From Leeia speluncae (GTDB lineage Bacteria > Pseudomonadota > Gammaproteobacteria > Burkholderiales > Leeiaceae), in contig NZ_JAJBZT010000003.1 in the NCBI RefSeq assembly GCF_020564625.1, forward strand, positions 186,001-250,000: a DNA stretch of 64,000 bases, given 5' to 3'. The stretch's first letter is position 1. Each line of letters begins with the position of its first letter. Positions 61,409-64,000 of the stretch are shown here, one piece after another. Made by a program: the position numbers and the translations under genes. Under the pieces are notes generated by a model. That model had not been told where the DNA came from, searched no databases, and was given only the letters and a program-made list of their open reading frames with translations.

Positions 61409-62233
61409 TTAATCTTTTTCACCCGACTCTTTATCGTGATGTTCATTTTCACGATGCTCATCTTCATCACCATCATCATGGTGCTTTGTTTCGCCGGCAC
61501 TCGCTAACACCAGCTGTTTAGCGGGTTCGCTACTATCTGCACTGCTATAGTCATCTCCAGCTTCTAGCCGATTATCTTGAAATAAAGGCGCAAACATTGG
61601 CTGTTGGGCAAGTAAACTTTTTGCACCACCGTAGCCTGAGTAAACAAAGCCAACCACTAAGGCTAACAATAAAGCGCCCACTAATGGTCTAGCTGAACGA
61701 ATACCTTCTGTAGATGCGCCCTCTTTCTTACCGGTGACCATGGCACGCGCTAGGTTTTCTTTATGCAGTACGCTACTTAACACAACAGCAATTACATGGA
61801 TAACCACTAAGCCCATGAACGCATTACCAAGTAGTTCGTGAATCTCTCCCGCATCCATCGTATCGGAAAAAGTTAGCCAGCCAGTTAATGGCGTTGCAAT
61901 ACCAAATGCAAGTAACGCCAGAATGGCTAATGCACCAGCAGGGTTGTGCCCAACATGATGTTCTGGGTCGCCATTTTTAATGGCTTTGAAATAACGAATA
62001 GCGGCCAATGGAGAACGGATAAACTGAGTAAACCGTGCATAACGCGTACCGACAAGTCCCCAGATTAAACGGAAAATAATCATGAGTGCCACATTGTAAC
62101 CAGCCAGCACATGAATACTACGAAGGTGCTCACCTTCAGAAGTAAAGTATGCGGTTAGAAAGCTAATCACTAACACCCAGTGAAACACACGTGTGGGTAG
62201 ATCCCAAACGAGTACTTTGCTTTTATTTTCCAT
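61409..62233 (-). CDS. Cytochrome b561-type membrane protein with His-rich tail
   Basis: A 274-residue membrane protein of the bacterial cytochrome b561 family. It starts KVLVWDLPTRVFHWVL, with membrane helices carrying heme-ligand histidines (FHW, SIHVLAGY, IHELLG, VIHVIAV). After the last helix comes a 70-residue polar tail ending in a stretch of His, Asp and Glu (HHDDGDEDEHRENEHHDKE) that could bind metal. ATG at 62233 has GGAG ahead; two earlier ATGs are less well placed. Electron partner unknown; no soluble cytochrome is next to it. Confidence 0.85.
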   Translation of the reverse strand: MENKSKVLVWDLPTRVFHWVLVISFLTAYFTSEGEHLRSIHVLAGYNVALMIIFRLIWGLVGTRYARFTQFIRSPLAAIRYFKAIKNGDPEHHVGHNPAGALAILALLAFGIATPLTGWLTFSDTMDAGEIHELLGNAFMGLVVIHVIAVVLSSVLHKENLARAMVTGKKEGASTEGIRSARPLVGALLLALVVGFVYSGYGGAKSLLAQQPMFAPLFQDNRLEAGDDYSSADSSEPAKQLVLASAGETKHHDDGDEDEHRENEHHDKESGEKD

Positions 62234-62278
62234 TTTATTCTCCATCCCATTTTGTAAGGTGCGGAAAATATCCATCAA

Positions 62279-62840: not shown

Positions 62841-63293
62841 TTAAGCAGATTTACGAAAGCGATCTAACCCAATTCCGCCAGTACCGAAAACAGAGAGGGC
62901 AAACAACATCAGCCCCCATTGCCAATGATCATAAAGACCAGGTGTCCATACACTCGCTGGTGTCACCAAACCATGCCAGTAAGCGATGACCGCCATCGCA
63001 TTCACACCAAATAAGCCAATCGCCGCCCAACGTCCAAATAACCCCGCAATGAGTAGCGCAGAGAAAATTAACTCGCCGCCAGTAGCTAATGGTGCCGCGA
63101 TGCTCGGTGGTAATAATGGCACATGGTATTCATCGGTAAATAAAGCGATCGTAATAGACCAATCATCTATTTTGGTAAGCCCCGAGCGAAAAAAAACGCG
63201 GAAGATTTCTATACGCATTAACAGCAAAGCGATCGATTGCAATGCAGTTAGCCAAGGTGCTTGCCATTCACGGTTTGATTGAGAGCGACGCAT
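62841..63293 (-). CDS. DoxX-family membrane protein of a bufferin-type locus (BufD/HvfD)
   Basis: A 150-residue membrane protein with four hydrophobic segments. FFRSGLTKIDDW, ALFTDEYHVPLLPP and GELIFSALLIAGLFGRWAAIGLF-type helices match the DoxX proteins that accompany DUF692 enzymes. ATG behind AGGAGG, 33 bases after the DUF2063 gene, so the two are one operon. In Haemophilus and Caulobacter such genes (HvfD, BufD) accompany copper-binding modified peptides. Role of DoxX there is unknown. Confidence 0.87.
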   Translation of the reverse strand: MRRSQSNREWQAPWLTALQSIALLLMRIEIFRVFFRSGLTKIDDWSITIALFTDEYHVPLLPPSIAAPLATGGELIFSALLIAGLFGRWAAIGLFGVNAMAVIAYWHGLVTPASVWTPGLYDHWQWGLMLFALSVFGTGGIGLDRFRKSA

Positions 63294-63326
63294 GTGTTCC
63301 TCCTGTATGGATGGGTTCTATTGTTG

Positions 63327-64000
63327 TTAGTATTGAATATCGATCAAAGCACTCGCTTCAAACAAACATTGCAGCGTGGATAGCGGCTGATATGCCTCAT
63401 CGATTGCCAACCCTATATCCACCGCTTCTGCAAAACCACACCCGCTAATCAGCGCGTTGGTCACCGCTGTATCTACTGTTGAGAGCCGGATAGGCGTTAC
63501 TACATTAGCAATACGAGTCACGAGCACCCCGCCGCCTGGTTTATTTAAATCCACTTGCACCACTTTTTGTTCTGGCTGGTGGTATTCCCAAATATCCGCT
63601 AGCGGCCAATTCGATTGAATGAGACAGACAGCAGGATGAAAAACAAAGATCAGTCCCCCTATTTTTTCTGGCGGCACAGATGCTAGGCTAGAAGGTGATA
63701 ATGGTGACGCATCTTTTGCATAAAAAGCGCAATGTACGCGCCAATCTAGCCTTGCCACATCCGGTAGGTATGGCAATGAAATAGCTGGGGGATAAGACGC
63801 CATCCAGTCAGGGAAGTCGTGACCTAGATCATGAAGATTGGGCGATATGGCTCTTTGGCTACTTACATATTGCGCCGCCATTTCCTCAAAAAAAGCTTGC
63901 CCAACTAAAGCAGTCACAACAGGAAATAAAGCACTGAGTGCATGGGTGCGATTGAGTTGATGATTGCGGCGATACGCAGCTAATCGCTGAGGGCTAAAAA
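63327..64000 (-). CDS. DUF2063 protein of a bufferin-type locus (BufC/HvfC), start outside window
   Basis: Partial gene: the frame is open to the right edge, so the start lies beyond 64000. The 224 visible codons include RLAAYRRNHQLNRTHALSAL, FPVVTALVGQAFF and FPDWMASYPPAISLPYLPDV, characteristic of DUF2063 (HvfC/BufC). An internal GTG at 63917 is not the start. HvfC partners the DUF692 iron enzyme (BufB/HvfB) in modifying a Cys-rich DUF2282 precursor (BufA/HvfA) by oxazolone/thiooxazole formation. Those two genes are expected just beyond the edge. Confidence 0.88.
   Translation of the reverse strand, partial: FSPQRLAAYRRNHQLNRTHALSALFPVVTALVGQAFFEEMAAQYVSSQRAISPNLHDLGHDFPDWMASYPPAISLPYLPDVARLDWRVHCAFYAKDASPLSPSSLASVPPEKIGGLIFVFHPAVCLIQSNWPLADIWEYHQPEQKVVQVDLNKPGGGVLVTRIANVVTPIRLSTVDTAVTNALISGCGFAEAVDIGLAIDEAYQPLSTLQCLFEASALIDIQY

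Follow-up and report, generated by a model that had tools for sequence, protein, structure and literature searches.

A putative bufferin-1 operon with two tandem DUF2282 precursor genes in a Leeia-like betaproteobacterium

The window analysed here, a stretch of 64,000 nucleotides (G000:C3:186001-250000) within a contig of 420,325 bases, ends on its right side in two minus-strand genes for a DoxX-family and a DUF2063 protein. From these two genes alone, the initial annotation had predicted the tail of a bufferin or oxazolin locus, with a DUF692 enzyme and a Cys-rich DUF2282 precursor just past the edge. This raises the question whether such an operon is present, to which of the two types it belongs and what kind of precursor it encodes. 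The sequence was read beyond the right edge, and the region C3:247000-262000 will be referred to as locus L003 (L003 coordinate + 60999 = window coordinate).

Genes at and beyond the right edge of the window

The two visible ORFs, at 62841-63293 and from 63327 onwards, are adjacent, co-directional on the minus strand and separated by 33 bases (63294-63326), as had been described. The following features were found:

62841..63293, minus strand: bufD, DoxX-family membrane protein, 150 aa (PF07681, 54.1 bits, cut-off 23.6)
63327..64000 plus 85 bases beyond the edge (L003:2328-3086), minus strand: bufC, DUF2063 partner (PME-type 1), about 252 aa (PF09836)
L003:3086-3928, outside the window, minus strand: bufB, DUF692/MNIO enzyme, 280 aa (PF05114, NF050167)
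L003:3946-3980, minus strand: hairpin in the bufA2-bufB gap (folding)
L003:3990-4244, minus strand: bufA2, DUF2282 precursor, 84 aa (PF10048)
L003:4329-4401, minus strand: three hairpins in the bufA1-bufA2 gap (folding)
L003:4426-4674, minus strand: bufA1, DUF2282 precursor, 82 aa (PF10048)
L003:4889-5443, opposite to bufA1-bufA2-bufB-bufC-bufD, divergent: greB

Reading outward, bufB is reached 85 bases beyond the window edge; bufC follows it directly, its ATG sharing one base with the bufB stop. Together with the two DUF2282 genes further on, it lies 0.1-1.7 kb beyond the edge on the minus strand, upstream of bufC, exactly where enzyme and precursor had been expected. Both points on which the prediction had been made to depend, a DUF692 gene within a few kb and a DUF2063 match, were found, and an operon foreseen from two genes was thus confirmed. 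The order bufA-bufB-bufC is present on a single strand. Searches of the genome detected bufA1 and bufA2 as the only DUF2282 genes and bufB as the only DUF692 gene. On the same strand beyond bufD, positions 61409-62278 encode a protein of the cytochrome b561 type, the C-terminal tail of which is rich in His, Asp and Glu (HHDDGDEDEHRENEHHDKESGEKD) and possibly metal-binding.

Assignment to the bufferin-1 family and predicted function

BufB matched PF05114 with 341.8 bits (DUF692 E-value 3.8e-102) and reached 348.4 bits with NF050167, 'MNIO family bufferin maturase', which is above the curated cut-off of 310, whereas the score of 260.9 obtained with the HvfB model is under its cut-off of 360. Alignments with the solved relatives 3bww, 8hci and MbnB 7dz9 demonstrated that BufB retains the blocks common to them (HG, SEHL/SDHL-type, EN, LDVNN, IHIAGH and DTH). 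BufC was recognised by PF09836 with 60 bits for the visible part and 65.1 bits for the whole protein (cut-off 27.2), but stayed under the cut-off of the NCBIfam model HvfC (40.5 versus 142), as did BufD for the NCBIfam HvfX family (42.7 versus 80). These low scores fit bufferin rather than oxazolin partners, though neither protein has a positive curated match.

According to PMC12452194, the core genes of Buf1 encode precursor, MNIO, DUF2063 protein and DoxX protein; Buf1 is characterised by a DUF2282 precursor with bufABC in strict order, the central cysteines being modified and the outer ones joined in a disulphide. Since all four core families occur here in canonical order on one strand, BufB scores above the bufferin maturase and below the HvfB cut-off, and the DUF2282 precursors carry four cysteines, the locus is very probably a bufferin-1 operon, bufA1-bufA2-bufB-bufC-bufD, making exported copper-buffering peptides.

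The chemistry, export and copper binding of the products are deduced from published relatives, as thiooxazole installation and copper binding have been described for MNIO-DUF2063 products (PMC13097082). By analogy, BufC, with its DUF2063 and RRE-type domain, would present the precursor and guide BufB, and the MNIO iron enzyme BufB would oxidise the two central cysteines of each DUF2282 precursor to thiooxazoles, leaving the outer two to form a disulphide. The presumably Sec-targeted peptides might then be exported to the periplasm, where they would bind and buffer excess copper, with the DoxX membrane protein BufD presumably in an accessory role. In PMC12452194, operons induced by gold are reported along with MerC fusions and ties of DoxX to oxidative or sulphur stress, which could instead point to an operon serving mainly against another stress (gold, mercury, sulphur/oxidative). 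We consider this unlikely, as the bufferin function tested in the cited literature is copper buffering.

Two precursors and the hairpins behind them

The initial annotation had anticipated a single Cys-rich DUF2282 gene; the family was correct, but two genes were found, with PF10048 scores of 80.9 and 88.3 bits. BufA1 and BufA2 each contain exactly four cysteines, in the conserved DUF2282 pattern KCxG...NDC...HSCAGQ...GTC, and their N-termini resemble signal peptides by eye (KK, a hydrophobic stretch and an AxA-like site). Around Cys2 and Cys3, which are the residues modified in Buf1 (PMC12452194), the two proteins are near-identical. Judged by their sequences, bufA1 and bufA2 are ordinary precursors of a known family: the suggestion that the precursor could be new holds for the sequences as such, but not for their kind, as all four cysteines defining bufferin 1 are kept.

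Comparison with Leeia oryzae revealed 74% identity between the A1 orthologues and 76% between the A2 orthologues, whereas A1-A2 comparisons gave 55-65%, which places the duplication before the split of the two species. A third genome of the genus carries a single, A1-like copy. The ratio dN/dS was saturated, and hence uninformative, in pairs involving genes of the window's own locus. A Leu directly after Cys1 was found only in the two A2 proteins, with Phe or Tyr in the other DUF2282 precursors extracted, which were pulled from the loci by pattern so that a few divergent ones were missed. This exchange, together with differences in the middle of the core, might be taken to indicate that bufA2 is a duplicate in decay rather than a second functional substrate. 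Nevertheless, bufA2 is intact in two species, its orthologues are clearly closer to each other than to bufA1, and both modified cysteines have almost the same context as in bufA1; decay is thus quite improbable. Finally, an oxazolin (hvf-type) locus with an EGKCG-repeat precursor and the gene set HvfABCX shares the enzyme, partner and DoxX families and would account for the weak HvfB, HvfC and HvfX matches, but all three models remained under their cut-offs while BufB exceeded its own, both precursors belong to DUF2282 and the EGKCG motif occurs in neither, so that the bufferin half of the initial annotation stands and the oxazolin half is refuted by precursor type.

Both precursor genes of the bufferin-1 operon are followed by strong hairpins. 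Three successive hairpins occupy the bufA1-bufA2 gap (z -5.5 over the stretch), and one 15-bp hairpin is located in the bufA2-bufB gap (z -6.2). A terminator scan detected none in either gap, since T-tracts are absent. The hairpins matched no Rfam family, and a genome search ruled out that they represent a genomic repeat. The bufA-bufB gap measures at least 45 nt in 18 loci from related genera, that of the window among them, and folds better there (median z -2.7) than a small control set of 24 further gaps, 45-200 nt long and between co-directional genes of the same loci, which may hold real terminators (median z -0.5; Mann-Whitney P 0.0008, for phylogenetically non-independent loci with rule-assigned start codons and a 45-nt limit set after the data had been seen). 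The hairpin sequences themselves vary from genus to genus.

We infer that the hairpins following each precursor gene probably keep expression of the enzyme below that of the precursors. The bufA transcript could be processed and stabilised at its 3' end, or termination could be partial. Lantibiotic operons are known to have comparable arrangements. A more far-reaching and tentative possibility is that Leeia keeps side by side two bufferins of ancient divergence, both matured by a single MNIO enzyme but different in function or metal preference, bufA2 carrying Leu for an aromatic residue after Cys1. In this reading the intercistronic hairpins, which are found again in related genera though with unrelated sequences, would set the stoichiometry of precursor to enzyme.

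Regarding regulation, some Buf1 loci carry sigma factor and nrsF genes (PMC12452194). A search of this genome for NrsF yielded no hit, and no sigma factor gene adjoins the operon. A perfect 15-bp palindrome, TGTATTGACAATACA, is located past the window edge at L003:4721-4735, upstream of bufA1 and 46 bases from its start, and is the sole exact copy in the genome. Although it has the look of an operator, we do not claim a regulon: it is absent in L. oryzae, and its near matches in the genome (up to 2 mismatches) number 20 versus 10 per strand for the reversed-pattern control, an excess of just ~2-fold.

Comparison with related loci and known systems

The locus is ordinary in that it represents another operon of the bufferin-1 family and leaves the picture of this family unchanged. 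The additions are modest, namely the ancient bufA1/bufA2 paralogy with the A2-specific Leu and the hairpins behind each precursor gene. What is nevertheless gained is a well-defined example of a bufferin operon in which two precursors have long been maintained. The pair offers a simple system for asking why some hosts keep two substrates per MNIO enzyme, and the locus also suits the question how RiPP operons of the bufferin class set precursor levels over enzyme levels.

In 37 out of 39 related loci, the gene immediately 5' of that for the MNIO enzyme encodes a precursor, and DUF2063 and DoxX genes mostly follow. Tandem precursors were also observed in L011, L018 (three genes) and L034; PMC12452194 already describes such tandems and suggests that several substrates may share a single MNIO enzyme. 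The locus of Leeia oryzae DSM 17879 (L010) shares gene order, tandem pair and divergent greB, with a BufB 66% identical, but has other hairpin sequences and lacks the palindrome.

Further arrangements were noted among the loci. In four bufferin loci (L033:3875-5593, L034:3359-5059, L039:3953-5704 and L048:3935-5590), the MNIO and DUF2063 domains (BufB and BufC) share a single continuous ORF of 552-584 aa, the named hosts being betaproteobacterial; the passages of PMC12452194 consulted do not mention this fusion. L040:3953-6418 is an ORF of 822 aa starting with a BufB-like MNIO domain, its remainder giving no recognisable match to BufC or BufD. The third genome of the genus contains a second MNIO locus (L009:1159-3119), with an MNIO 44% identical to BufB of the window locus, a DUF2063-like partner and a signal-peptide-like precursor of 86 aa with six cysteines that appears Buf2-like by eye.

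Oxazolins and captophorins (Haemophilus HvfA, fontiphorin; PMC13097082) have the MNIO and its DUF2063 partner in common with the present locus, but their precursors belong to families other than DUF2282. The locus closely resembles the Buf1 clusters of the Caulobacter vibrioides type (PMC12452194). Compared to these, the window locus differs by its two tandem precursors, the hairpins between precursor and enzyme genes, and the lack of an NrsF hit in the genome and of an adjoining sigma factor gene, but it agrees with them in precursor family, the four cysteines, MNIO, DUF2063 partner, DoxX protein and gene order.
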